From NCBI GenBank assembly GCA_015061185.1, contig SUWZ01000020.1, positions 1-52,492 of the forward strand: a stretch of DNA of 52,492 bases, in the 5' to 3' direction. The position numbers and the translations under genes were made by a program. Numbering within the stretch: position 1 is the first letter of the stretch; each line of letters opens with the position of its first letter. The DNA comes from Bacteroidales bacterium (lineage in GTDB: Bacteria > Bacteroidota > Bacteroidia > Bacteroidales > Paludibacteraceae). The notes beneath the pieces are model-generated. The model saw only the letters and a list, made by a program, of their open reading frames with translations, was not told where the DNA came from and did no database searches. This document shows positions 38,873 through 52,492 of this stretch, one piece after another.

Positions 38873-40018
38873 ATGAAAAGAATTTGTGTTGAAAATAGTT
38901 ATGGAGATAAAATTTGGTATGTCTTTAATAAGAAAACAAGGACAGCAATTGTGTCGTACAATGGAGAGAGAAGAGAATTTGATGATGTTTCGTATTCCAA
39001 TTCTATTGTTATTCCCAAAGAAGTTCAGTATAATGGGGTGATATACGAAGTTAAGAAAATAGGGAAGAAGGCATTCCGAGATTGTTCTGAGTTAACAAAT
39101 GTTACTATTCCATGCACCATAAACGAGATAAAGTCCTCTGCTTTTGAATGTTGTGATTCACTAAAAAGTATTTCAATTCCCAATAGTGTAAAAAAAATCG
39201 GGAAAAGAGCTTTTTATGGCTGTAATAGTCTAGAAAAAGTGACAATTTCTAGTCAGATTGACAAGATTGAAGAAGAATGTTTCAAATTCTGTTATATGTT
39301 GAAAGATGTCGTAATACCTGAGGGGATAAAAGTAATTGCTATAGATGCCTTTTGGGGTTGTTGGTTTCTAAATAGCGTAACCATTCCCAGTAGTGTAAAT
39401 AAAATCGGATTGGACGCGTTTTCCTCATGCGAGTATCTGATAGATATTATTGTCGCGGAGAATAATTTACATTATAGTTCTGTTGATGGGGTCTTGTTGA
39501 ACAGATCTAAAACAGAAATAATCAAAGTTCCAGAGGGAAAATCCGGATTATATAAAATTCCTGATGGAGTTTCAACAATCGGGCGCAATGCGTTTGATGC
39601 TTGTAAAAAATTAACTCAGGTGTCAATTCCTAGTAGTGTAACAATGATTGAGCCTGCTACATTTTTGTCTTGCGATGCTCTTAATAACATAATTGTGGCT
39701 GAAAATAATTCCTGTTTTTGCTTTGAAGATGGAGTTTTGTTTAATAAATCAAGAACAAATTTGATTTTTGTTTTGAGAGAAAAATTAGGAGAATACACTA
39801 TTCCTAATGATGTGATAAAAATTAATGATTATGCTTTTTATTGCTGTTCCAATCTGATTAGTGTTAAGGTTCCTTCTTCGGTAAAGTTTATTGGCGATTT
39901 TGCATTTGACGATTGTAAAAAACTCAATGTGATAATAGATAATCCCGAAGATTGTTTAACAATAGGGTATAGATCTTTTGGTGGTTGTAAGTCAGTAATA
40001 TTTAGTAAAAGTGAATAA
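38873..40018 (+). CDS. BspA-like leucine-rich repeat protein
   Basis: 381 residues composed almost entirely of LRR_5/BspA repeats with the pattern AFxxCxxLxxVxIPxSVxxIGxxAF (for example AFRDCSELTNVTIP, AFYGCNSLEKVTI and AFDACKKLTQVSIPSSV). Family members are surface or secreted adhesion proteins, but this one has neither a Sec signal nor a T9SS C-terminal domain. It may be cytoplasmic, a truncated derivative or exported otherwise. It is monocistronic, at the border to the accessory region. Confidence 0.88.
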   Translation: MKRICVENSYGDKIWYVFNKKTRTAIVSYNGERREFDDVSYSNSIVIPKEVQYNGVIYEVKKIGKKAFRDCSELTNVTIPCTINEIKSSAFECCDSLKSISIPNSVKKIGKRAFYGCNSLEKVTISSQIDKIEEECFKFCYMLKDVVIPEGIKVIAIDAFWGCWFLNSVTIPSSVNKIGLDAFSSCEYLIDIIVAENNLHYSSVDGVLLNRSKTEIIKVPEGKSGLYKIPDGVSTIGRNAFDACKKLTQVSIPSSVTMIEPATFLSCDALNNIIVAENNSCFCFEDGVLFNKSRTNLIFVLREKLGEYTIPNDVIKINDYAFYCCSNLISVKVPSSVKFIGDFAFDDCKKLNVIIDNPEDCLTIGYRSFGGCKSVIFSKSE

Positions 40019-40186
40019 TTGTTGTGTTATTTAGTCACAGTATAAATTTATTTATTTGGGAAATAATTAGAAGCAAAAACCAGGAAATCTTGTGAGTTCT
40101 TTTGCCTTTTAATCCAATATATAGAGATTATTTTTGATATCTCTTTATTTTTTTGTCATCATTCTCTATTTGTAGATTTTATCATC

Positions 40187-40210
40187 GTAGGGGCGAATTG
40201 CATTCGCCCT
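40187..40210 (+). repeat. REP palindrome 1
   Basis: GTAGGGGCGAAT-TG-CATTCGCCCT, an imperfect palindrome of the GTAGGGGCGAATnnnATTCGCCC type. It is the outermost REP on the 3' side of the RAYT gene. The preceding 40019-40186 holds nothing recognisable. Confidence 0.8.
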
Positions 40211-40294
40211 GTTTTTATTGGGGAAATATTTTTGTGTTGAATTCGATTGTGCTGAATTTGATTTGGGCGAATTCATTTGGTGCGAATCGGTTAT

Positions 40295-40408
40295 TTGTGG
40301 CGAATGTTATTTGGGCGAATGCGATTCGCCCCTACGGGGAATATAATTTATCGGATTGCCATTTTGTCGGATTGTTTTCATTAATATTGCCTTCGTTAAT
40401 TATTTGGG
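40295..40408 (-). pseudogene. Decayed 3' fragment of the RAYT gene (internal deletion copy)
   Basis: 40295-40379 repeats 40434-40518 (the gene end and flank) with one mismatch over 85 bases. 40374-40408 repeats an internal segment of the gene (40684-40718) with about two mismatches. The two parts join at GTTTTC, present at both source sites, so this is a partial RAYT copy that lost the sequence between two short direct repeats. Confidence 0.65.
40313..40335 (-). repeat. REP palindrome 2
   Basis: GGGCGAATGCGATTCGCCC followed by CTAC. It lies inside the decayed RAYT fragment and is identical to REP 3. Confidence 0.8.
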
Positions 40409-40451
40409 TTGAATTTGATTGCGATTAATGCAATTGTGGCGAATGTTATTT

Positions 40452-40474
40452 GGGCGAATGCGATTCGCCCCTAC
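40452..40474 (-). repeat. REP palindrome 3, overlapping the transposase stop codon
   Basis: The minus strand reads GTAGGGGCGAATCGCATTCG and onward. The TAG of this REP is the stop codon of the RAYT gene. Confidence 0.8.
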
Positions 40475-41016
40475 GGGGAATATAATTTATCGGATTGCCA
40501 TTTTGTTGGATTGTTTTCTATATAATTTGATATATGTCTGTATGATGCGACTGTTCGTATTATATGTTCATAATAATTGCGTTGCCAAATGGAATATCCT
40601 AATTGTCGTGAAACCGCACCTTTAAATCCTCTAACTATGGCTCCAACCGTTTTGGATGGTGATTTCATTCGTTGGGGCAAATCGTTTTCATTAATATTGC
40701 CTCCGTTAATTGTTTGGGGCGAATGCGATTCGCCCCTACGGATTTCTATGATTGCATGAAAATGATTGGGCATAACAATATAATTATGCAAACGTACATT
40801 ATCGTGGCGGATATTGATGGTGTTCAACCATTCTTGTTCGACCAATTGTCCTATGTCATTCAATTGCATTTTGCCATCAATAACGTTGCCAAACATACAT
40901 ATTTTGTTAATAGAGCATAGGGTTATGAAATACAAACCCGACTGAGAATAGTCATGCCCCGTCAACCGTATGCTTCGCCTGTGATGAATATCCGGATTAT
41001 ATTTATTTGCCATCAT
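40471..41016 (-). CDS. REP-associated tyrosine transposase (RAYT, Y1_Tnp/IS200-like)
   Basis: 181 residues. HUH nuclease core: the N-terminal strand LTGHDYSQSGLYFITLCS, the metal motif MPNHFHAII (HxH, near 82-88) and the catalytic tyrosine region RNYYEHIIR (near 147-155). The C terminus SDKLYSP ends directly in a REP. The gene is flanked on both sides by GTAGGGGCGAAT-type palindromes, the known substrates of RAYTs. One further REP is translated in frame as RRGESHSP right after the HUH motif. Tandem ATGs follow AAAAAAAGG. All key residues look intact, so it may be active. Confidence 0.88.
   Translation of the reverse strand: MMANKYNPDIHHRRSIRLTGHDYSQSGLYFITLCSINKICMFGNVIDGKMQLNDIGQLVEQEWLNTINIRHDNVRLHNYIVMPNHFHAIIEIRRGESHSPQTINGGNINENDLPQRMKSPSKTVGAIVRGFKGAVSRQLGYSIWQRNYYEHIIRTVASYRHISNYIENNPTKWQSDKLYSP
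40716..40740 (-). repeat. REP palindrome 4, in frame inside the transposase gene
   Basis: The full palindrome GGGCGAATGCGATTCGCCC plus CTACG is encoded in the RAYT open frame, between codons near 91 and 100. Confidence 0.8.
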
Positions 41017-41039
41017 CCTTTTTTTGTAGATTAATCATA

Positions 41040-41099
41040 GTAGGGGCGAATCGCATTCGCCCTATTAATGTATTTGTTGCGAATCGCCTTCGCCCTATA
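41040..41099. repeat. REP palindrome 5 plus a degenerate sixth copy
   Basis: 41040-41065 is GTAGGGGCGAATCGCATTCG followed by CCCTAT. 41077-41099 is a partial copy (GCGAATCGCCTTCGCCCTAT). They lie just upstream of the RAYT start. Confidence 0.7.
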
Positions 41100-41396: not shown

Positions 41397-41710
41397 TCAA
41401 GAATCCTCATGTTTTTTATACTTCATTGTGTACTTTTCAGATTGAACATCAATGTACATTTGATGTTCTTTTAATCCTTTTTCTTTGGCTATATTACTAA
41501 GAATTTTCTTGTTTATGGCTGAAATATCCTTGCCGTAATATATTGCGACAGGACGTATTTCTGTGCACAAATTAATTTTTGAGGTATTATTATGCTATGC
41601 ACATATTCTAATAACGGTTTTAGCAGAGGTTCTTTTTCTTCATAAGACATAACTTCGGGTATAACCGTTTCTTCTAATAGTTTCTTGAATTCACTTCTCT
41701 TGTTTTCCAT
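41397..41710 (-). pseudogene. Frameshifted gene downstream of hipA (function unknown)
   Basis: A first frame MENKRSEFKKLLEETVIPEV...LLEYVHSII starts inside the end of hipA. After the ATAATAATA stretch (about 41587-41597) the coding sense continues in another frame: NTSKINLCTEIRPVAIYYGK, then SNIAKEKGLKEHQMYIDV and SEKYTMKYKKHEDS, to a TGA at 41397-41399. Joined, it would make about 104 residues, unrecognised. Either a slippage mutation, a sequencing error or programmed frameshifting separates the halves. Its overlap with hipA suggests it was a third gene of the toxin-antitoxin operon. Confidence 0.55.
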
Positions 41711-42984
41711 ATAGAAGAATATTTAACATTAGTAACTCTATTATCAAATACTCCCTCAAACAAACTCATTTCTCGCTTTGCAATGCCTAATTTGGTTACT
41801 AATGTGCGCCAGTCTTTAACAGCCGCCACCACCTCGTTGATTATGGCCTTGGCAATCTCTGGGGTGAGCATATATTCCTCGCACGAGTTGAGTAAAATTG
41901 ACAAATCAGACTCGTTAGTTTTGCTGTTAATTAGCAAGCTTTGATGGTCATTCAGCGTTGGATTCATATCGTATGCAGGCGAAAGGGTCCAACCTTTTGC
42001 AGTAAGTAGAAAACCGTGATTACGGAAATGATCATCGCTGTTGCCGACACATATATTGAATGCAACTCGGCGGAACAACTCTCGCAAGTTCGCGTCAACA
42101 TCGGTACAACTGCTAATGATAAAATCAACAATATCGATATATCCGTGTCCTGTTGTTGCATTATCACCGTCGTTTAATCCAAGCAGTGTCATTGCCAAAG
42201 CAAAATGAATTCTCTTGCCTTCCTCCGTTCTATCAAAGCGACGAGAAAGTAGTGTATGATGCTTGTCGTTTATTTCAAGTGCCTTTGTTTTGGCAGCGTT
42301 AATGCCCGCATTTTTAGCTAACAGGTGGCAGAAATGCTCCCATAGTTCTGCATCGTAATCATCCTTCAATGATGGGAACTTTGCGACATATATACTTCGG
42401 TCCGTATCTACAACATTTGCTTTGGGGCGAGCACCACCAAGTGAAGAACCCGGCTGCACAAGTTGAGCAATCCATCGTTTTTCGGGTAGTGCATTGGTCT
42501 CCTCACTTTTCTCAATCGCCTTGCTTGCGGCAATAAGTTCGCACAAGTCGGTCAATGGAGGAATACGTAATGAGTTGTCGGCGTTTATAAACTCGCCATC
42601 AGGTGTTTCCTTGAAACGGAACCCACCCATACGGGAATAGTCATCAATACCCGTCAAAAAGTCAAACGAAGATAATCGGCGAACTGGTTTGCTTTCCTCT
42701 TGTGCCAAAATTTGTTCACGACGGAGGAGAAGGGTTCTTCCCCATCTGTCGGGCAGTGCATCGGCAAAGCAACCGAAAATATCCTTATTCGGCTGGGTGT
42801 ATTGTATCCCCGGATAGTTGTTAAGGTCTTCACTTAAAGTGATGGCATTGTATTTCTTTATCCAACTATCTGCAAACTTGAAACTATAACTGTCCGAGCC
42901 ACGAAGCGATTCGTAACCAAGTTCACCAACCAACTCAATCTCTTTGAGCCAATCAAAATCGGCATATACATACAATTTCTTCAT
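41674..42984 (-). CDS. hipA: HipA-family serine/threonine kinase toxin
   Basis: 436 residues. The N-terminal subdomain starts MKKLYVYADFDWLKEIELVG. The kinase core has the Ser/Gly-rich P-loop GSSLGGARPKANV (about 179-191), the catalytic loop NSDDHFRNHGF (about 315-325) and the metal motif SPAYDMNP (about 335-342). Relatives phosphorylate aminoacyl-tRNA synthetases or other translation factors and cause dormancy. All catalytic motifs appear intact. It starts six bases after the antitoxin gene; the end overlaps the frameshifted gene. Confidence 0.92.
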   Translation of the reverse strand: MKKLYVYADFDWLKEIELVGELGYESLRGSDSYSFKFADSWIKKYNAITLSEDLNNYPGIQYTQPNKDIFGCFADALPDRWGRTLLLRREQILAQEESKPVRRLSSFDFLTGIDDYSRMGGFRFKETPDGEFINADNSLRIPPLTDLCELIAASKAIEKSEETNALPEKRWIAQLVQPGSSLGGARPKANVVDTDRSIYVAKFPSLKDDYDAELWEHFCHLLAKNAGINAAKTKALEINDKHHTLLSRRFDRTEEGKRIHFALAMTLLGLNDGDNATTGHGYIDIVDFIISSCTDVDANLRELFRRVAFNICVGNSDDHFRNHGFLLTAKGWTLSPAYDMNPTLNDHQSLLINSKTNESDLSILLNSCEEYMLTPEIAKAIINEVVAAVKDWRTLVTKLGIAKREMSLFEGVFDNRVTNVKYSSIWKTREVNSRNY

Positions 42985-42990
42985 AGCACA

Positions 42991-43311
42991 TTACTCTTTT
43001 TTAGACGCCCTTTCACGCTGTGGCAAATTCATATCCTGCAATGCTCTGCCGAGTTCATCATCTTTTGCTAAAGAGAGAATATCATCATCGAGCTGCAGAG
43101 CATACAACACACGCAGATAGATGCCTATCGCCACTGTTGGGGCACCTTTCTCTATGCGCGAAACCGTAAGCGGAGAACAAGTAGCACGCTCCGCAACCTG
43201 AGCAACACTCAAATTACGACGCAAGCGGGCAAGCTTTATCTGCTCGCCAACAACCTGCATTTTTTGCTCCAACTTTCGGGGTAATTTAGTCCCCATCGTA
43301 CTCTTTGTCAT
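42991..43311 (-). CDS. hipB: HipB-like XRE-family antitoxin/repressor
   Basis: 106 residues with a helix-turn-helix domain (about 16-72): GEQIKLARLRRNLSVAQVAER, ATCSPLTVSRIEKG. It pairs with the adjacent HipA toxin, neutralising it and repressing the operon. The C-terminal acidic tail (about 75-106) would contact HipA or be proteolytically labile, as in known HipB proteins. Palindromic sites in the promoter (43314-43338, 43374-43387) are likely binding sites. Confidence 0.9.
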   Translation of the reverse strand: MTKSTMGTKLPRKLEQKMQVVGEQIKLARLRRNLSVAQVAERATCSPLTVSRIEKGAPTVAIGIYLRVLYALQLDDDILSLAKDDELGRALQDMNLPQRERASKKE

Positions 43312-44019: not shown

Positions 44020-45405
44020 ATGATAATAAAAACCATAAAATTGACATCGTTATTTGTCAATACAGAGAACTACAGATTTGAACCATTATCTTCTCAAAAA
44101 GAGGCAATAGATAAGATGGTTGAGGATCAAGAGGATAAGTTATATTCTCTTGTGGATGATATTGTCACAAATGGTCTGAGCCCCGTTGACTTGATCATCG
44201 TAACACCCAGTGAAGATAGTAATAAATATATTGTGCTTGAGGGTAATAGACGAATTACATCTCTAAAGTTATTAAATAACCCTACTCTTATTGATGATAA
44301 ATATGCGTCGTTAAGGAAGAAATTCCAAAAACTACAAAAAGATAAAGCTAATATTGTTTCAGAGTTAAAGAGCATTAGTTGTGCTGTGTTTGAAAATCCT
44401 GCAGAGGCTGATATATGGATAAAGCGTAAACATTCAGGAGAACTGAATGGTGTTGGTACTGTTACTTGGAATGCTCAACAAAAACAAAGATTTGAAGAGA
44501 AGACTGAAGGAAAATCATCAATTCCATTGCAGATTATCACATTGTTGAGATCTCAAGACAATGTTCCAGAAGATATCAAAGATTCATTATCAAAACTCAA
44601 TATTACAAACCTACAACGTTTGATGTCCGATCCGTATGTCAGAGAACATCTTGGTTTAGAAATCAATAACGGAACATTGGTTTCAAAGATTCAAGTTTCT
44701 GAAGTTATTAAGGGATTATTGAAAGTTGTTACTGATATTTTAAATCCTGAGTTTAAGGTTTCCGACATCTATAATAGAGAAAAAAGGAAACAGTACATAG
44801 ATAGTTTTAGTAAAGATCAGAAGCCTGATTTGTCTAACGAGACTTCTGAACAATGGGGCATTCAGGACATCGTAAACGAAGATGAGAAATCTCAAATAAA
44901 TAATGAGCCAAAAGAATCTCAAAATAAAAAAAGTAAGAAACCAAAGACAAGAGTAGGTTTAGTTCCGAAAAACCTTGTATTACACATAAATAATCCTAAG
45001 TTGAACAAAATTTTTGAGGAACTTAAACAAATACCAGTTAGGACATGTCCTAATGCATCTTCTGTTTTGTTAAGAGTTTTCTTAGAATTGTCTGTTGATG
45101 CCTACTTGGAGAAATATGATTTAGTAAAAAACAATGCTATCACAGCTTGTTCCTCTGGGGAAAGTTTACAAGGTAAAGTTGGTAAAGTTTTAAATCATAT
45201 GACTCAATTAGGAATAATGAGTAATGATTTATCAAAAGGAATAAGATCAGAAATTAACGATAAGAATTCAGTATTGTCCATTGAATCATTGAACGCATAT
45301 GTTCATAATGAATTCTTTTATCCTAAGGCTGATAATCTAATTATTGGTTGGGACAATATTGAAACTTTCTTTGTATTATTGTGGGAATCTATAAATAAAG
45401 AATAA
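44020..45405 (+). CDS. ParB/Srx-domain protein of a putative defense cassette
   Basis: 461 residues. The N-terminal ParB/sulfiredoxin-like domain (about 1-135) shows LSPVDLIIVTPSEDSN, then the hallmark YIVLEGNRRITSLKLLNNP, with the RxxA/T-type nucleotide-binding Arg pair. A Lys/Glu-rich linker (about 270-315) leads to a helical C-terminal domain with LLRVFLELSVDAYLEKY and LNAYVHNEFFYP, which recalls HEPN-like helical domains (a weak inference). ParB/Srx domains bind or hydrolyse nucleotides, and some act as nickases. The methylase gene follows after four bases and the ATPase gene overlaps that, so the three form one operon. AT-rich. Confidence 0.8.
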   Translation: MIIKTIKLTSLFVNTENYRFEPLSSQKEAIDKMVEDQEDKLYSLVDDIVTNGLSPVDLIIVTPSEDSNKYIVLEGNRRITSLKLLNNPTLIDDKYASLRKKFQKLQKDKANIVSELKSISCAVFENPAEADIWIKRKHSGELNGVGTVTWNAQQKQRFEEKTEGKSSIPLQIITLLRSQDNVPEDIKDSLSKLNITNLQRLMSDPYVREHLGLEINNGTLVSKIQVSEVIKGLLKVVTDILNPEFKVSDIYNREKRKQYIDSFSKDQKPDLSNETSEQWGIQDIVNEDEKSQINNEPKESQNKKSKKPKTRVGLVPKNLVLHINNPKLNKIFEELKQIPVRTCPNASSVLLRVFLELSVDAYLEKYDLVKNNAITACSSGESLQGKVGKVLNHMTQLGIMSNDLSKGIRSEINDKNSVLSIESLNAYVHNEFFYPKADNLIIGWDNIETFFVLLWESINKE

Positions 45406-45409
45406 AGGT

Positions 45410-46270
45410 ATGGAGTTTTTATCACCTCTAAGATATCCAGGAGGCAAAGCTAAAGTTGCAGATTTCGTGCAATGCTTAATCAAAGAAAATGCATTGCTAG
45501 ATGGTACTTATGTTGAGCCATATGTAGGAGGAGGCTCCGTAGCTCTATCTTTACTTTTCAATGAATATGTGAGGGATATATATATAAATGATAAAGATAT
45601 ATCTATTTACGCATTCTGGTATAGCGTTCTACACGAATCTGAGGCTCTATGTAAGTTAATAAAAGATACTCCGATAAATGTAGAGACATGGCATAAGCTA
45701 AAGGAAATTCAATCAAATAAAGAAAATGCTGATTTACTGAATTTAGGATTCTCTACATTCTTTTTAAATAGAACAAACCGTTCTGGTATTTTAAAAGCTG
45801 GAGTTATTGGAGGGTACGATCAGACTGGTAACTACAAGATTGATGCTAGATTCAATAAAGATGACTTAATAAAAAGAATCCAAAGAATAGCAGACTATGC
45901 GGATAGAATTCATTTATCAAATGAAGATGCTATAACTTTGGTACAACGCTTAAATAATGAATTGTCTCACAATACATTGTTTTATTTAGACCCGCCATAT
46001 TATGTTAAAGGAAAAGGTCTATACATGAATTATTATAATGATGATGATCATAAGGATATAGCAAATGTAGTAGATACAATCCAAAATCATAAGTGGATTA
46101 TCTCTTATGATAATGTACAATTTATAACAAGTCTTTATTCAGAATATAGACAGCAATGTTTTGAACTGAATTATAGTGCTAGTAATTCAGGAAAAGGCGA
46201 AGAAATCATGATATTTTGTAATAATATAGTTATTCCTGAACATAATTTATTTAATCGCCCAACAAAGTGA
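45410..46270 (+). CDS. D12-class adenine-specific DNA methyltransferase (Dam-like)
   Basis: 286 residues. Alpha-class N6-adenine methylase motifs: SPLRYPGGKAKVADF (motif X), VEPYVGGGSVALSLLF (motif I, SAM), INDKDISIYAFW, FFLNRTNRSG and the catalytic LFYLDPPYYVKGKG (DPPY near 195). It probably marks host DNA within the cassette; the recognition sequence cannot be read from the protein. It ends in GTGA, whose GTG starts the ATPase gene. Confidence 0.92.
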   Translation: MEFLSPLRYPGGKAKVADFVQCLIKENALLDGTYVEPYVGGGSVALSLLFNEYVRDIYINDKDISIYAFWYSVLHESEALCKLIKDTPINVETWHKLKEIQSNKENADLLNLGFSTFFLNRTNRSGILKAGVIGGYDQTGNYKIDARFNKDDLIKRIQRIADYADRIHLSNEDAITLVQRLNNELSHNTLFYLDPPYYVKGKGLYMNYYNDDDHKDIANVVDTIQNHKWIISYDNVQFITSLYSEYRQQCFELNYSASNSGKGEEIMIFCNNIVIPEHNLFNRPTK

Positions 46271-47832
46271 AGATTACAAAAATCCACATAGAAAAATTTC
46301 GAGGTTTTCAAAATGAAGACTTTGAACTAGGTTCACAATTAACAGCTATTGCAGGCCAAAATGGAACTCAAAAGTCCACGTTGCTTGGCATTGTAACTCA
46401 GACCTTTACTCTTAAGTCCGATGATCCAATGAGGGCAGAAAAACCTTTGTGTGGGGGCAGTTACATCTCTGCTTTTAAAGATAAATTCAGATTATCCCCA
46501 ATTTTTGATAAACCCAAAGGGCATGAATGGACCATCTCATTTGACTCAGGAATAGCAGATTTTACGGTTGAAAGTATTAAACGAACTGGAGATCCGAATG
46601 TTCGGTTTTGGAAAAAAAGTGCAAGACAAGAAGGTGATGGTTATATATCGTTTCCTACAATATTTTTGAGTTTGAAGCGTTTGGTCCCTGCAGCAGAAGA
46701 ATCTAAAATTACAACAAATGACTCTCTGCTAACTGCTGAAGAATTAAACGAGTTCAAGCGATTACATAATAAAATATTAATAGCACAGACTCCCATCTCA
46801 TCGGCAACTGCAATAACCTCAAAAAACAAGCAGTCAGTAGGTGTCTCTACGGAACTATATGATTGGAATCAAAATTCAATGGGACAAGATAATCTAGGTA
46901 AAATTATACTTGCATTATTTTCCTTCAAGAGACTACAGAAAAAATATCCTGGGCAATACAAAGGTGGGATTTTGGCTATTGATGAAATGGATGCAACAAT
47001 GTATCCAGCTTCACAAGTCGAACTATTAAAAATATTACGTAAATATGCATCTGAATTGAAATTGCAGATACTATTTACAACTCATTCAATGTCACTTCTT
47101 AAAGCAATGGATGATTTAGTCAAAGAGGTTGGCAAACAAACCGAAACCACAAATCAAGTAAAACTCTTATATTTAAAGAAAATTGATGATAAGATTGTAA
47201 TCAAACAGAATGTAGATATAAAAGGTATTCAATTAGATTTAAATGTTGTTGCAGAAGGGAATAATCGTAAAAAGAATAAAATTACGGTTTATACGGAAGA
47301 TAATGAAAACAAGTTATTTGTAAAAGCGATTTTAAAATCTAAAGCATCTGTATTAGATTTTGTAGATGTTACTTTACCTTGTTCAACTTTAGTGGAACTT
47401 GTGAATAAAAAAATTCCTGCATTTACACATCCATACTCAATTATCGTATTGGATGGAGATGTTAGAGGGAATAAAGAATATATCAGAAAGATTAAAAATG
47501 CAAATAATGTATTAGTATTACCTGGAAGTAATTCACCAGAAAGACTGTTAGCATCATATTTATATAATCTTTCTGATACGGATTCATTGTGGTCAAATAT
47601 TGCTAATGGATATACAAAGCAATATTGTTTTCGAGAGTATTCAATCGAGCAAATTAATGCTGGAGGAGATTTGGGACGAAAAAATGCAAAGAATTGGTTT
47701 AATGGTCAATTATCGTATTGGGGGAGAAATGGATGCAAAGTTTTTAATCCATTCTTAAGCTCGATATCTGCAGAAGTACAAGAATTTAAAACTAATTTTG
47801 ATAATATGATAAAAAGGTTTATTTACGACTAG
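46267..47832 (+). CDS. OLD-like ABC/SMC-type ATPase with a Toprim-like C terminus
   Basis: 521 residues from a GTG overlapping the methylase stop by four bases. An N-terminal ABC/SMC ATPase domain has IHIEKFRGFQ, an atypical P-loop AGQNGTQKSTLLG (30-38, Gln where the GK Gly is expected), a signature-like QNSMGQDNLGKI, Walker B ILAIDEMDATMYP (near 236-248) and an H-loop FTTHSM. The C-terminal part (about 335-521) begins KITVYTEDNENKLFVKAIL and has SIIVLDGDVRG, compatible with the Glu and DxD of a Toprim nuclease, as in OLD proteins. It is likely the effector: an ATP-gated nuclease. Confidence 0.8.
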   Translation: MKITKIHIEKFRGFQNEDFELGSQLTAIAGQNGTQKSTLLGIVTQTFTLKSDDPMRAEKPLCGGSYISAFKDKFRLSPIFDKPKGHEWTISFDSGIADFTVESIKRTGDPNVRFWKKSARQEGDGYISFPTIFLSLKRLVPAAEESKITTNDSLLTAEELNEFKRLHNKILIAQTPISSATAITSKNKQSVGVSTELYDWNQNSMGQDNLGKIILALFSFKRLQKKYPGQYKGGILAIDEMDATMYPASQVELLKILRKYASELKLQILFTTHSMSLLKAMDDLVKEVGKQTETTNQVKLLYLKKIDDKIVIKQNVDIKGIQLDLNVVAEGNNRKKNKITVYTEDNENKLFVKAILKSKASVLDFVDVTLPCSTLVELVNKKIPAFTHPYSIIVLDGDVRGNKEYIRKIKNANNVLVLPGSNSPERLLASYLYNLSDTDSLWSNIANGYTKQYCFREYSIEQINAGGDLGRKNAKNWFNGQLSYWGRNGCKVFNPFLSSISAEVQEFKTNFDNMIKRFIYD

Positions 47833-47851: not shown

Positions 47852-47884
47852 TTCGGCGTTCACTTGTTGAGGGTGAACGCCGAA
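47852..47884. terminator. Bidirectional terminator between convergent operons
   Basis: TTCGGCGTTCAC pairs perfectly with GTGAACGCCGAA across a 9-base loop, between the ATPase stop and the res stop. TTTGTT follows on the plus strand, and ATTATA and AT-rich sequence on the minus. Confidence 0.7.
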
Positions 47885-47891
47885 TTTGTTA

Positions 47892-50800
47892 TCAGCTTAT
47901 CGCATTCATACCATCTATCAAATCTTGATAGGTAGCCACTTTGTGGTACTTCACATTGGCGGTGGAGATGAAGTTGAACAACTTCTCCGCACAGTTAATT
48001 TTGGCTCGCTCGATGGCTGACAAGTCCATTGACGACATTGAGCCTTTGGTTTCGGCCACGAAGAAGATGTGCTTCACATCATTCTTTTTCATTGCGATAG
48101 CCCAGTCGGGAGCGTAATTACCTACGGGAGTAGGAATCTGGAAGGTGCGTGGCAGCTTGGCATATACCACCACTTCGCTGGCTTCGTCAAGGTCGTGGGC
48201 AAATTGGCGTTCGCCCTTGCTGTCACTGAATACATAATCGGTGATATGTTTCTTCGCTTCGTAGGCTCGGTCAAAGTCCATTTTACTCTTCACGGTGAAA
48301 ATGTCGCTATCGTATTTTCCCTCGGTAATGTTGTAGTGGATTGCCTCTACAATCATCGTTGATTTTTGCTCCTTAATGATGCTTATGACCTTACGGATAA
48401 ACTCTTCGGGATTGTTCTTGAACAAGAAGAGCTTACTTTGCTTAATGCCCTGTAGAATCTTAACAACAGTGCGGCGGGTGAGGTTTGCACCTTTGGCAAT
48501 ATCACCTACAAGGTCGTATTTGACGGTTGAGGTACATACATCGGTCAGTTCACGGGATTGCGAACGAGTATCGCCAAATTCAGTTACTTGGCTTTCATCC
48601 TGTGTACCCTCTACCATTACATAGCGAAGCTGTTTAACCTCCAAATCCTTGTTGATGTATAGAATTACCTTGTCAATAAGTTCGTTGCTATCGTAACTTA
48701 CCTGATAAACATACTGATGATTGATTTCGTTCCACAAGGCTTGGAACTCGGCTTTATTGAAATTTTCGTTCAACTTATTATCGGGTGTGGTTGTTTTTTC
48801 CTCAACCACCATGTCATCCAATGCCTTTGGATCGAATATAGAGTTGATAAGTCGGGTAACACCCTCTGCTATCGGCTGCAACTTCTGAGGTAATGGAGCA
48901 ACTGTGCCATTGGCCACCGCCTCACGATATTCGGGAGTGATATTCTTTTGGTCGTCAATATAGCCGTTGTCTTCCAAGTAAATGATGATGCGGCTTGCTT
49001 CGGTTTCGCTGATAGTGTGTACCTCTTCTCCAATCTTGATTTGTTTGCCTGTGAAGTAGGTTACGGTTGCTTTGGCTGCTCGTTCACGCAAAACATCGCG
49101 TGTTTCACGCTGCAGGGCAGTAGTAAAGTCGGCATAGCTTTCATTGGCTATCACCGTTAGTTTGTTCACTTCGTGTACATCTTCACCCAATAGCTCGGCA
49201 TCCATTCGGGTACCGTGCTTATCCACACAGATTCGCAACCCACGACCTACCTCTTGGCGTTTGGCTGTAGTCGAATTACTATGGCGAAGAGTGCAGATTT
49301 GAAATACATTTGGGTTATCCCAACCCTCACGCAAAGCAGTGTGAGAGAATATGAAGCGAGTAGGCTCCTCAAAACTCAATAAGCGCTCCTTGTTCTTCAA
49401 GATAAGTTCGTAAGCTGAAGTATCATCGGATAGTCCCGTTTTCTTCTCGACTTTACCATCAATGATTCGGTTTGTTTTCTTGTCTATGGAGAAGTAACCA
49501 CGATGTACATCTTGCGGATAGAATCGGCGAAGGTATTCGTTGTAGTCCTCATCCCAAATATGGAACTCGTTACTTACAAGACGAGAATACTCCTCCTCAA
49601 ACATCTTTTGGAATACACCCTTTACCTCGTTACCCTCTTCATCGTAACTCTTGTATTTTGCAACCTCATCAATGAAGAACAGCGACAAGCATTTGATGCC
49701 ACGCTTGAATAGTTGGCGTTCCTTCTCGAAGTGAGACATGATAGTTTCGCGTATTTGCACACGCTGCATATTCAGTTCGTTGGTATCGCCAATGACCTCT
49801 CCTCGGCGTATAGTGGTACCATTTAAGAAAGTTACATAACCGTTCACGTTGATTTCCGAAACAGTGAAGCCATCATATTGAGCCAATCCTGATTCTTCAC
49901 GCAAACTATCACCTACACCAAAAGTTTTTATTTTACGGACGATAGTGCCCGATGCTGTTTTGGTCTCTATCTCTATGCGAGCCATCGGTGGTTGCTTGGG
50001 CGAGAGAACTATGTTATCCAAATAGAGATAACTGCTTGTGCCGCGCAAGTTCTTCACCTCAAAGCCCTTCACATGGATACGCTTTACCAACTTCTGACGA
50101 TAGGCATCGAGCGCATCCAACGCATAGATGGTATCGTGCTTGGTCTTGTGTGTCGCCGAGTAGTTAAGTACAAACAACGGATTGAATCGCTTGATACCCG
50201 CTTGTGTGGCATCACCCTCCATCTTCTGTGGCTCATCCATAATGATAATGGGATAGTTGGCCGCAATTACATCAATCGGTCGGCGACTGCCAAACTCATC
50301 ACGCTTGGAGTAGATGATACGGCTCTCCTTGCTCTTGCCACCCTCTTTCATTGAGGCGGCAAAGGCCTGGGTATTGATTATCATCACGCTCAATCCCGAA
50401 TCGGAAGAGAAACTATCAAGCTGTTGCAAGTTGCTGCTATTATAGATAAACCAACGAGCCTTTTTACCGTAGTATTCCATAAAGTGTTCTTCCAACATCT
50501 TGAAACTCTTGGCTACGCCCTCACGAATAGCAATACTTGGCACTACTATGATAAACTTACTCCAACCATACTGTTTGTTCAGTTCAAACATTGTCTTAAT
50601 ATAGACATATGTCTTACCCGTACCCGTCTCCATCTCAATATCGAGGTTTACTACACCTACACCTTTGGAAAGTGTAGCAGACGGAGTTATATCATACAAA
50701 TTCTGTATAGCATTGATATTCTTGAGCAGTGTTCTCCCGTCTAACTCTATATGATGGTTGCGGAAGCCTGTTTCACCTTCAAAGTCTATTTGCTGTTGAG

Positions 50801-50921
50801 TACGCTTGCCACGGTCAATACGATACTCTGCCACTCTGTGCGATGGCTGTCCTGTAAAGACTGATACAGTATTTTCTACTGCATCGGTCTGGTATTGCTG
50901 AATCTTAAACTTGAACTTCAT
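47892..50921 (-). CDS. res: Type III restriction endonuclease subunit (helicase-nuclease)
   Basis: 1009 residues from the ATG at 50919-50921, which has a strong GGAGG at 50926-50930; an upstream ATG at 50948 would overlap mod. The superfamily 2 helicase core has Walker A EMETGTGKTYVY (near 95), MDEPQKM in place of DEAH (near 227) and the motif VI block KRQEVGRGLRIC. The C terminus has a PD-(D/E)XK nuclease site, NYAPDWAIAM and FFVAETKG (near 937-955). With Mod it forms the ATP-dependent type III enzyme that cuts near unmethylated inverted sites. It begins 11 bases after mod. Confidence 0.95.
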   Translation of the reverse strand: MKFKFKIQQYQTDAVENTVSVFTGQPSHRVAEYRIDRGKRTQQQIDFEGETGFRNHHIELDGRTLLKNINAIQNLYDITPSATLSKGVGVVNLDIEMETGTGKTYVYIKTMFELNKQYGWSKFIIVVPSIAIREGVAKSFKMLEEHFMEYYGKKARWFIYNSSNLQQLDSFSSDSGLSVMIINTQAFAASMKEGGKSKESRIIYSKRDEFGSRRPIDVIAANYPIIIMDEPQKMEGDATQAGIKRFNPLFVLNYSATHKTKHDTIYALDALDAYRQKLVKRIHVKGFEVKNLRGTSSYLYLDNIVLSPKQPPMARIEIETKTASGTIVRKIKTFGVGDSLREESGLAQYDGFTVSEINVNGYVTFLNGTTIRRGEVIGDTNELNMQRVQIRETIMSHFEKERQLFKRGIKCLSLFFIDEVAKYKSYDEEGNEVKGVFQKMFEEEYSRLVSNEFHIWDEDYNEYLRRFYPQDVHRGYFSIDKKTNRIIDGKVEKKTGLSDDTSAYELILKNKERLLSFEEPTRFIFSHTALREGWDNPNVFQICTLRHSNSTTAKRQEVGRGLRICVDKHGTRMDAELLGEDVHEVNKLTVIANESYADFTTALQRETRDVLRERAAKATVTYFTGKQIKIGEEVHTISETEASRIIIYLEDNGYIDDQKNITPEYREAVANGTVAPLPQKLQPIAEGVTRLINSIFDPKALDDMVVEEKTTTPDNKLNENFNKAEFQALWNEINHQYVYQVSYDSNELIDKVILYINKDLEVKQLRYVMVEGTQDESQVTEFGDTRSQSRELTDVCTSTVKYDLVGDIAKGANLTRRTVVKILQGIKQSKLFLFKNNPEEFIRKVISIIKEQKSTMIVEAIHYNITEGKYDSDIFTVKSKMDFDRAYEAKKHITDYVFSDSKGERQFAHDLDEASEVVVYAKLPRTFQIPTPVGNYAPDWAIAMKKNDVKHIFFVAETKGSMSSMDLSAIERAKINCAEKLFNFISTANVKYHKVATYQDLIDGMNAIS

Positions 50922-50932
50922 AAAACCTCCGT

Positions 50933-52492
50933 TTAGATAATTCTGCAATTAGTATCGGGTGAATAATGCTTGAAAATCTGCTCAAAGTTATCAATCACAT
51001 TGTCATTGGCTGCAGAGGCATCACGCATGACAAAGTAGATAGGTTGCAACTTGGCAATCTCTGTAATGGTCGATTCGTTCACATCACGGTCGAAGCAAGC
51101 CACAAGGTAGTTGTCATCTACAAAATGGACATTCTTTCCTGCAATCTGCTTGCTCTCAATCTTTGCAGACAATTCTATGCCGAGGTCGAGCATTACTTGG
51201 AAGAGCAAATCCTCATTGGTGCGGTCTGCCTTTACATTTTCATTGAACAGCGATTGCAACTCAAACTCCTGTGGAGTGTAATAGACATCTTCCATATTGG
51301 ATGTGTCAAGTTTCAATACACGGAAACCCACATCCAATTTAATTCCTAATTCCTTATTCCTAACTCCTAATTCATCTTTGATTTTGCGTCCTGCACGACG
51401 GATACGCTCCTTGCCTATCTCACAGATATTCTTATACCCAGCCCTATATGCCTCGCTCTTCTCATCTGTAAGTTCGGGTAACTGCACCATAATAAAGCGG
51501 CGATTACCACCATCCTCGGCATTTAGTTTCATTACGGCATGAGCAGTGGTAGCGGAGCCTGAGAAGAAATCCATAATAAAAGAATCTCTATCGTTATATG
51601 ATATAGCTTTGATTAATAATTGAATCAAAGATAACGGTTTGGCATAATCAAAATAATCTTTACCCAATAAACTTATTTGTTCTGAAGTTGCATCTTCATT
51701 TGTTCCAATGTTATAATGAGCAATGGTTAGCAAATTATGCATCTTTTTAATTTCTCCACCTTTCTTAATATGGTTAGGTCTGAATGGAATTTTACTAATA
51801 ATAAGAGTTTCGCCATTTGATATAATCTCATTCACTTTTTGTTGGGAGTATCTCCATTCCCCTTTGAGTTTGAATTCATTTTCGTTTAGCCCATTCTTTA
51901 TAATTAAATCATTTAAGAGTTCTGTAATAATATTTCCTTCTGACATGTTTTGTTTCTCTACCATTCCGTCATTAATATTAAACATCACGGAGTGCGGTGG
52001 AAATGTTAGGACAGAGATAGAATTCCCTGCATTATTCAATGGATACTTTTTACCTTCTTCTGTTGTGTCAACAGAAAGTGCTCCTAACATAAATCTATTT
52101 TTTGAATAGCAAACAATATACTCTGTTTTAGTTCCAATATTGGCATTTAGGAACGATGGCTTCTTTTTCTTCTCCCATACATATTGAGTAACAAAATTCT
52201 GCTCTCCAAAAACTTCATCACAGATTTTTCTAAGATTCTCAATCTCATTATCATCAATCGAAATAAAGATAACTCCATCGTCAGCGAGTAGGTCTTTTGC
52301 CACTTTCAAACGAGGATAAATCATATTCAACCAATCGGTATGGAAACGACCGTTGCTTTCGGTGTTTCGTTGCATGGGGTCGATAGTTTGATTGCCTTCC
52401 TCATCAAACAAACCGCTTGATTGCTCAAAATCGTCTTTGCCTTGTGCAAAATCATCATTATACACAAAGTCATTACCCGTATTGTAAGGTGG
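50933..52492 (-). CDS. mod: Type III DNA-methyltransferase subunit, 5' end outside the window
   Basis: A beta-class N6-adenine methyltransferase. The last bases of the window encode PPYNTGNDFVYNDDF, part of the catalytic DPPY motif IV, so the frame continues beyond 52492 upstream. Then come HTDWLNMIYPRLKVAKDLL and GVIFISIDDNE, a central target-recognition region (about 51590-52150) and SAM motif I DFFSGSATTAHAVMKL (about 51536-51580). Four tandem 7-base units lie in its 3' part (51342-51369). The central part is visibly more AT-rich than its flanks. It is coupled to res, 11 bases downstream. Confidence 0.94.
   Translation of the reverse strand, partial: PPYNTGNDFVYNDDFAQGKDDFEQSSGLFDEEGNQTIDPMQRNTESNGRFHTDWLNMIYPRLKVAKDLLADDGVIFISIDDNEIENLRKICDEVFGEQNFVTQYVWEKKKKPSFLNANIGTKTEYIVCYSKNRFMLGALSVDTTEEGKKYPLNNAGNSISVLTFPPHSVMFNINDGMVEKQNMSEGNIITELLNDLIIKNGLNENEFKLKGEWRYSQQKVNEIISNGETLIISKIPFRPNHIKKGGEIKKMHNLLTIAHYNIGTNEDATSEQISLLGKDYFDYAKPLSLIQLLIKAISYNDRDSFIMDFFSGSATTAHAVMKLNAEDGGNRRFIMVQLPELTDEKSEAYRAGYKNICEIGKERIRRAGRKIKDELGVRNKELGIKLDVGFRVLKLDTSNMEDVYYTPQEFELQSLFNENVKADRTNEDLLFQVMLDLGIELSAKIESKQIAGKNVHFVDDNYLVACFDRDVNESTITEIAKLQPIYFVMRDASAANDNVIDNFEQIFKHYSPDTNCRII
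51342..51376 (-). repeat. Tandem heptamer repeat inside mod
   Basis: On the plus strand: ATTCCTA, ATTCCTT, ATTCCTA, ACTCCTA and a degenerate ATTCATC. The unit is not a multiple of three, so loss or gain of one copy would shift the mod frame about 135 codons before its end. The present copy number keeps the frame open (encoding ELGVRNKELGIKL). Confidence 0.7.

Follow-up and report, generated by a model that had tools for sequence, protein, structure and literature searches.

A D12 methyltransferase gene between a PD-lambda-5 partner and an OLD-type ATPase gene in a Bacteroidales defence island

Contig SUWZ01000020.1 of the Bacteroidales bacterium assembly GCA_015061185.1 (Bacteroidota, Paludibacteraceae), analysed over positions 1 to 52,492 (52,492 nucleotides, hereafter the window), carries three adjoining plus-strand genes at 44020..47832, termed A, B, and C. 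The A and B products correspond to the anti-phage system PD-lambda-5, a protein with ParB and HEPN folds and a D12-class adenine DNA methyltransferase, and the C product is an OLD-type ABC ATPase with a probable Toprim domain. In genomes and viral contigs, the methyltransferase gene was found repeatedly beside A, beside C, or beside both. We lean, if only slightly, toward reading the trio as a methylation-gated anti-phage unit, in which the PD-lambda-5 pair is joined by C as a second effector.

The three open reading frames lie where a preliminary description of this DNA, made from the sequence alone, had placed them: A at 44020..45405 (461 amino acids), B at 45410..46270 (286 amino acids), and C at 46267..47832 (521 amino acids), with a 4-base gap between A and B and a GTGA overlap between B and C. 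A terminator-like stem-loop of 14 pairs, 7 of them G-C, with a T-rich tail is located just 3′ of C on the plus strand (47852..47884; a consensus match only). Because of the tight spacing and the stem-loop behind C, we infer a single, operon-like transcription unit. Promoter-like sites showed no excess over shuffles (27 versus 24.0, standard deviation 4.3).

Protein A matched the PADLOC model PDLC03998 (PD-Lambda-5_A; 8e-166, residues 1-456 of 461) and protein B matched PDLC04018 (PD-Lambda-5_B; 1.2e-126, residues 2-279 of 286) in a 2023 copy of PADLOC-DB. Both PADLOC components of PD-lambda-5 are present here, adjacent and matched over nearly their full length. The earlier proposal of a defence-type cassette comprising a methylase and an ATPase-nuclease-type protein was right. 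The cassette had also been called possibly undescribed, which fails for two of the three genes because A and B are PD-Lambda-5_A and PD-Lambda-5_B, the components of a system validated against phages (excerpts of PMC9519451); the trio as a whole matches no named system among the matches listed.

Residues 1-265 of A (44020..44814, plus strand) have a ParB CTPase-like fold (structure matches 7bnr_A, 7bnk_A, 6sdk_A, Noc structures), and residues 322-461 (44983..45402, plus strand) match the HEPN fold. H429 in the latter domain is kept in 61 of 61 A proteins, and R352 is invariant as well, located on another helix. The preliminary description had recognized the ParB fold and suggested a nickase, nucleotide sensor or adaptor; the fold was correct, and the proposal was incomplete in that the effector-like HEPN-fold domain had been missed. 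A PDB sequence search with the A alignment generated three matches, none below E 0.9, and a Pfam scan of the 61 A proteins yielded no family matching more than two members. A short variant of A (411-419 amino acids) was observed in loci L047-L050, L053, L057, and L062; the invariant residues are retained in those of L048, L050, L053, L057, and L062, and the protein of L057, the one short variant tested, had no PADLOC match at 1e-10. Still shorter A-like proteins (364 and 379 amino acids), with no B found, were observed in two genomes of the window's family (L032 and L033; short views L010 and L011). Their genes are preceded by genes for about 700 and 520-540 amino acids and followed by a gene for 320-340 amino acids, and they possibly represent another ParB-type system.

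Protein B generated a hit on PF02086 (3.1e-20), and its catalytic DPPY motif (residues 194-197) is invariant in 28 of 28 aligned members, in agreement with the D12-class N6-adenine DNA methyltransferase called earlier. Among the matches listed, no type II endonuclease family was found for A, B or C, and the next gene outward encodes a type III Res. Plain type II restriction-modification was rejected, as no cognate endonuclease adjoins B among these matches.

Protein C generated neither a specific PADLOC system nor a PD-Lambda-5 model among the matches listed, and it matched phrog_3940 (3.9e-106) across nearly its full length. The best Foldseek match of its AlphaFold2 model (predicted local distance difference test 91.2, predicted template modelling score 0.65) was 6p74, with the GajA structures 8x5i and 8sm3 among further matches, and its best PDB sequence match was PtuA (8ee4, 1.3e-16). 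The ABC ATPase set of Walker A, Walker B, signature, and H-loop residues (K36, D239, S204, G206, and H273) is conserved in 59 of 59 C proteins, and D208, N209, E344, D345, D396, and D398 are likewise invariant. Motifs, profile comparison, and secondary structure place a probable Toprim region at about residues 338-435 (47278..47571, plus strand; E344 and D396-G-D398), and a PADLOC ATPase-Toprim profile covers residues 232-431. When the C tail was first compared with OLD proteins in full length, no support emerged (P 0.39); the tail was in register with OLD Toprims (P 0.0022) when the OLD proteins were cut from the H-loop on and the C piece was lengthened. The Toprim assignment therefore leans on a chosen region, since the alignment emerged only after the proteins had been re-cut. 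The ABC-type ATPase called earlier is confirmed as OLD-type, and its Toprim-like C terminus is regarded as a probable Toprim domain. Viral contigs L165, L168-L172, L178, L179, and L190 carry C genes mostly of 614-673 amino acids with no B within three genes; C is split in L190, and some contigs of this set are cut by contig ends.

How often the three genes occur together was examined in three samples. A scan of species genomes with the C alignment yielded 235 relatives, of which the best 80 by similarity to the C of the window were fetched, and viral contigs were sampled with C (80 of 132 loci) and with A (80 of 108 loci). Neighbourhood was defined as within three genes and a long flank as at least 2.5 kb on both sides, and locus and offset counts include near copies. 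The 80 genome loci comprised 34 with A+B+C, 34 with B+C, and 12 with C only (26, 28, and 8, respectively, among the 62 loci with long flanks). The viral loci picked by C comprised 59 with B+C, 7 with A+B+C, and 14 with C only (55, 5, and 5 among the 65 with long flanks). Those picked by A comprised 70 with A+B, 3 with A+B+C, 6 with A only, and 1 with nothing above 100 bits; the corresponding counts among the 51 with long flanks were 48, 1, 2, and 0.

The offset profile rejects chance neighbours: in 68 of the 80 genome loci a B relative was located no more than three genes from C, and none was found at any of the 632 gene positions at distances 4-10. A relatives around C gave 35 matches at distances 1-3, one at distance 4 (L088), and none beyond. 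Median same-strand gaps were -1 base for A-B (n = 32), 16 for B-C (n = 21), 4 for C-B (n = 27), and 14 for C-A (n = 14). Wherever A and C lay within three genes of each other, B was also present (34 genome loci, 7 viral loci picked by C, and 3 picked by A, the last on contigs also among the 7), and for this reason the methyltransferase is seen as the hub.

Of 395 genomes drawn evenly from the phylum, among them the one that contains the window, 6 carried C at E ≤ 1e-20: three with A+B+C (the window among them), one with C+B, and two without B, one of which is disrupted. Few records were obtained by tblastn, with A in 6 phage and 6 plasmid records and C in 7 phage and 7 plasmid records. In Streptococcus phage Javan645 and a Nicoliella plasmid, the gene after an ATPase gene bears the annotation DNA methyltransferase or adenine methylase, and Citrobacter phage phiNP carries a B relative behind the ATPase gene.

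Additional genes were observed within or next to some of these clusters. An AAA_15 ATPase gene (427 amino acids) and a gene for an unknown protein of 310 amino acids are located between C and the B-A pair in L088 (9650-11846) and may form a PARIS-like pair embedded in the system. In L067 (9599-13302), a HerA-type ATPase (742 amino acids) and an unknown 491-amino-acid protein are encoded between C and B; L074 has a 727-amino-acid relative of this ATPase and an unknown 470-amino-acid protein at the same place. A 1344-amino-acid protein with helicase and Eco57I-type methylase domains is encoded directly upstream of C-B in L070 (3965-7999), with a Fic/Bro-N gene after, and a 1328-amino-acid relative of it is found directly upstream of C-B in L075.

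Eight long-flank genome loci have C and no B, and three of them carry genes of type I systems. L084 contains hsdM, hsdS, C, and hsdR in a row, C of L094 is preceded by hsdM and followed by an hsdS relative, and C of L091 adjoins an hsdR relative, with SIR2-like and Abi_C genes upstream. That C, where B is missing, swaps to hsd methyltransferase genes (L084 and L094) or lies beside hsdR (L091) favours a hub or mark role of the methyltransferase. C without B sometimes sits inside another modification system, and apparently stands alone in other loci.

The 34 genome loci with A+B+C are distributed over Bacteroidota (24), Pseudomonadota (7), Bacillota (2), and Planctomycetota (1), and the B+C loci include one archaeon. 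The nearest trios, from Prevotella (L038), a Bacteroidales bacterium (L039), and Phocaeicola (L041), keep the order A-B-C, and the protein identities measured for them are 76-98%, consistent with transfer of all three genes together; Parabacteroides (L040) has C at 85%, split over two open reading frames. The order elsewhere is shuffled (C-A-B, A-C-B, and partly inverted forms). A gene order not conserved outside this locus, which the preliminary description would have taken as refuting its proposal, is thus half borne out: the trio recurs in four phyla, but its order does not hold.

Phylogenetic trees of B and C were used for counting changes in gene make-up. From 240 B matches at E 1e-5, one B per locus of at least 250 bits and 255-345 amino acids was retained and near copies were removed, leaving the window and 159 loci. 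On this 160-row tree, at least 32 changes among the make-ups AB, BC, and ABC are required, versus 73.6 for shuffled labels. A second B tree, built under a mixture model from 124 of the 160 rows (all 39 A+B+C rows, together with any row in which B is flanked by more than 4 kb on each side), also showed interleaved make-ups, with at least 26 changes versus 58.6 for shuffled labels; its well-supported branches force at least 10 changes for AB, 6 for BC, and 10 for ABC. The 98-row C tree needs 14 changes between ABC and BC, 10 of them forced. The trees were built quickly, contain some long branches, and do not tell gain and loss apart, but they show that B often changes its partner. A history of one ancestral A-B-C trio followed by losses only would require many changes on these trees, which do not separate gain from loss.

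In the mechanism that we propose, B would methylate adenines of the host DNA and thereby mark self, consistent with its catalytic motif, and A would clamp DNA via its ParB-type nucleotide-dependent fold. Where DNA lacks the mark or is abnormal in some other way, the state of the clamp may free the HEPN domain of A, with the result that RNA is cut or the cell is stopped, and C may engage the same unmarked DNA and cut nucleic acid in an ATP-gated manner. Each effector could act with B alone, and the window, which carries both, would have two layers behind one mark. Self/non-self discrimination by a methylase plus an ATP-gated nuclease, as suggested in the preliminary description, stays plausible because, in the loci counted, A and C came within three genes of each other only where B was present too. 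DNA modifications of T-even phages block many restriction enzymes. Protection by PD-lambda-5 is stronger against T-even phages than against lambda (excerpts of PMC9519451), which, together with such modification, would fit an effector other than plain site cleavage.

A broader proposal, which we hold to be evenly balanced between right and wrong, is that the D12 methyltransferase forms the hub of phylum-spanning, mix-and-match methylation-gated defence systems, whose two effectors, a ParB-HEPN clamp and an OLD ATPase-Toprim nuclease, are unrelated to each other and either interchangeable or stacked. PD-lambda-5 would then be one of three make-ups, C-B an unnamed system of its own, and the methyltransferase-linked OLD proteins a further class beside the existing five. 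To our knowledge, the triggers of OLD nucleases are known in few cases. The methyltransferase is found again and again with an OLD-type protein in place of its PD-lambda-5 partner, or with both, and this suggests the DNA mark as a shared switch; if true, OLD nucleases would gain a tractable self/non-self signal. In annotation, C-B pairs look like half a PD-lambda-5 because their methyltransferase is caught by the PD-Lambda-5_B model (5.1e-124 in the one pair tested), and annotation scoring A and B only leaves C out.

Several observations weigh against the methylation-gated reading. A does not retain the canonical HEPN motif Rx4-6H, as it has no conserved R at 422-424, and its RNase activity is uncertain. 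No Toprim model of Pfam, PF20469 included, matched any of the 59 C proteins. The choice of the best 80 of 235 genome loci by similarity to the window's C favours A-bearing loci, and the loci include near copies. The other five long-flank loci without B (L092, L103, L106, L113, and L117) contained no [DNS]PP[YFW] methylase motif in the open reading frames called, with Pfam covering one gene each in L103 and L106, and C can therefore stand without a visible methyltransferase. Searches of an open-access library returned no description of C-B or A-B-C and no experiment on C or the trio.

The main rival, rather unlikely in our estimation, is a guard model as in PrrC/EcoprrI, in which the methyltransferase protein (B, HsdM or the type III enzymes) would hold A and C inactive and phage inhibition or sequestering of it would fire them, with DNA methylation not being the signal. 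PrrC is encoded in a type I restriction-modification operon and is released once the restriction-modification enzyme is neutralized (excerpts of PMC3710099), and PARIS senses the restriction inhibitor Ocr (excerpts of PMC12839542). Gene positions compatible with such guarding are seen in L084, where C lies between hsdS and hsdR, in the window, where the trio adjoins a type III operon, and in L039, where the opposite-strand gene after C has the length of the window's Res (1018 amino acids; length alone was compared). The catalytic motif of B, intact in all aligned members, goes beyond the need of a pure scaffold, which argues against this model.

It is improbable that C is an independent OLD-type defence gene that shares islands with PD-lambda-5 with no functional link. 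Such independence would account for the 12 genome and 14 viral loci, out of 80 in each sample, in which C occurs without A or B (among those with long flanks, 8 of 62 and 5 of 65, respectively), and for the variable gene order. However, hitchhiking should decay slowly with distance, whereas the adjacency of B and C is immediate, often overlapping, and absent beyond three genes, and on the phage-type records L122 and L289 C and a methyltransferase gene lie without A directly beside integrase genes. More improbable still is a role outside defence, in epigenetic regulation or replication control borne by phages or prophages: C-B and A-B are frequent among the viral loci fetched with C and A, respectively (59 and 70 of 80), but A-B protects against phages (excerpts of PMC9519451), and the P2-like prophage source of PD-lambda-5 (excerpts of PMC10482375) and the prophage copy L219, with A-B beside portal and terminase genes and no C within three genes, fit phage-phage competition.

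The trio is located between hipBA and a type III restriction-modification operon, as described earlier and in agreement with Pfam and PADLOC matches. To the left, on the minus strand, are genes for a HipA-like kinase (41674..42984; PF07804, 3.1e-47) and a HipB-like helix-turn-helix protein (42991..43311; PF13560, 2.5e-09; TIGR03070, 2e-06, under its cut-off). To the right, also on the minus strand, are the type III restriction enzyme Res (47892..50948; PDLC03647, 2.9e-287) and methyltransferase Mod (50933..52492; PDLC03634, 3.4e-147). The Mod frame is open to 52492, the window end, and its profile match begins at position 134, its N-terminus lying outside the window. The G+C content is 31.9% in the trio, 43.7% in hipBA, 41.9% in the type III genes, and 38.0% in bases 1-38000; because of these differences, the defence island looks like pieces that were acquired separately. 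Further upstream, a Y1 (IS200-like) transposase gene (40471-41016, minus strand; Pfam match under cut-off) lies amid repeated GGGCGAATGCGATTCGCCC-type inverted repeats (40146-41099), which we take to be a repetitive extragenic palindromic (REP)-associated tyrosine transposase with its REP elements, and a BspA-type leucine-rich-repeat protein (LRR_5, 1.6e-62) is encoded at 38873-40018.

Compared with known systems, the ATPase fold of C is related to that of retron-linked OLD and PtuA effectors; unlike in retrons, no reverse transcriptase was found among the window proteins scanned, and an Rfam scan of the window generated nothing at gathering scores. No BREX model was among the PADLOC matches listed, and no separate BREX test was made. 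The trio shares an OLD-type ABC ATPase and, probably, a Toprim with Gabija (class 2 OLD), whose GajA is among the structural matches of C. Gabija was nevertheless rejected, since C has no adjoining UvrD-like helicase GajB, its neighbours being A, the D12 methyltransferase, and type III Res/Mod. PARIS (class 4 OLD) shares OLD-type ATPase and, probably, Toprim functions and a possible link to restriction-modification status, but has a separate AriB, whereas here the ATPase and probable Toprim are in one protein with a methyltransferase as partner. It was rejected because no AriB was among the neighbours scanned and AriA models match only parts of C. The distinction in make-up from Gabija and PARIS drawn in the preliminary description is therefore upheld.

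PrrC/EcoprrI and other HEPN-in-restriction-modification systems share with the trio an HEPN-type domain tied to a DNA methylase and a two-layer "RM + Abi" logic (excerpts of PMC3710099). In PrrC, HEPN is fused to an ABC ATPase, whereas in A it is fused to a ParB fold, and the methyltransferase of the trio is a D12 enzyme that stands alone, the trio having no classic restriction subunit. A list from 2013 already contained ParB-HEPN fusions and operons that combine HEPN, ParB, and a methylase (Saro_3948, MAE_28990), with no OLD-type ATPase mentioned alongside in the excerpts of PMC3710099. OLD proteins have been sorted into five classes in the excerpts of that literature, and the words methyltransferase and methylase were absent from the OLD-family papers text-searched for them. 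PMC10287943 was rejected as a description of the trio, as it concerns a different restriction-modification system in its excerpts.

PD-lambda-5 itself lacks the third gene of the window, C, which overlaps B. According to excerpts of PMC9519451 (Vassallo et al. 2022), it altered plaquing or plaque size in E. coli for every phage but one of a set of ten, a broad protection with no mechanism established in these excerpts, and its discoverers described it as a highly compacted "RM+Abi" system. The test host was mrr-deleted (PMC9519451, excerpts), which would be consistent with an active adenine methyltransferase. Anti-phage activity is demonstrated in the same excerpts for the E. coli PD-lambda-5 only. 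Taken together, the A+B pair is already known, and the C-B pair and the A-B-C trio are, as far as the open-access library searched goes, the new part.

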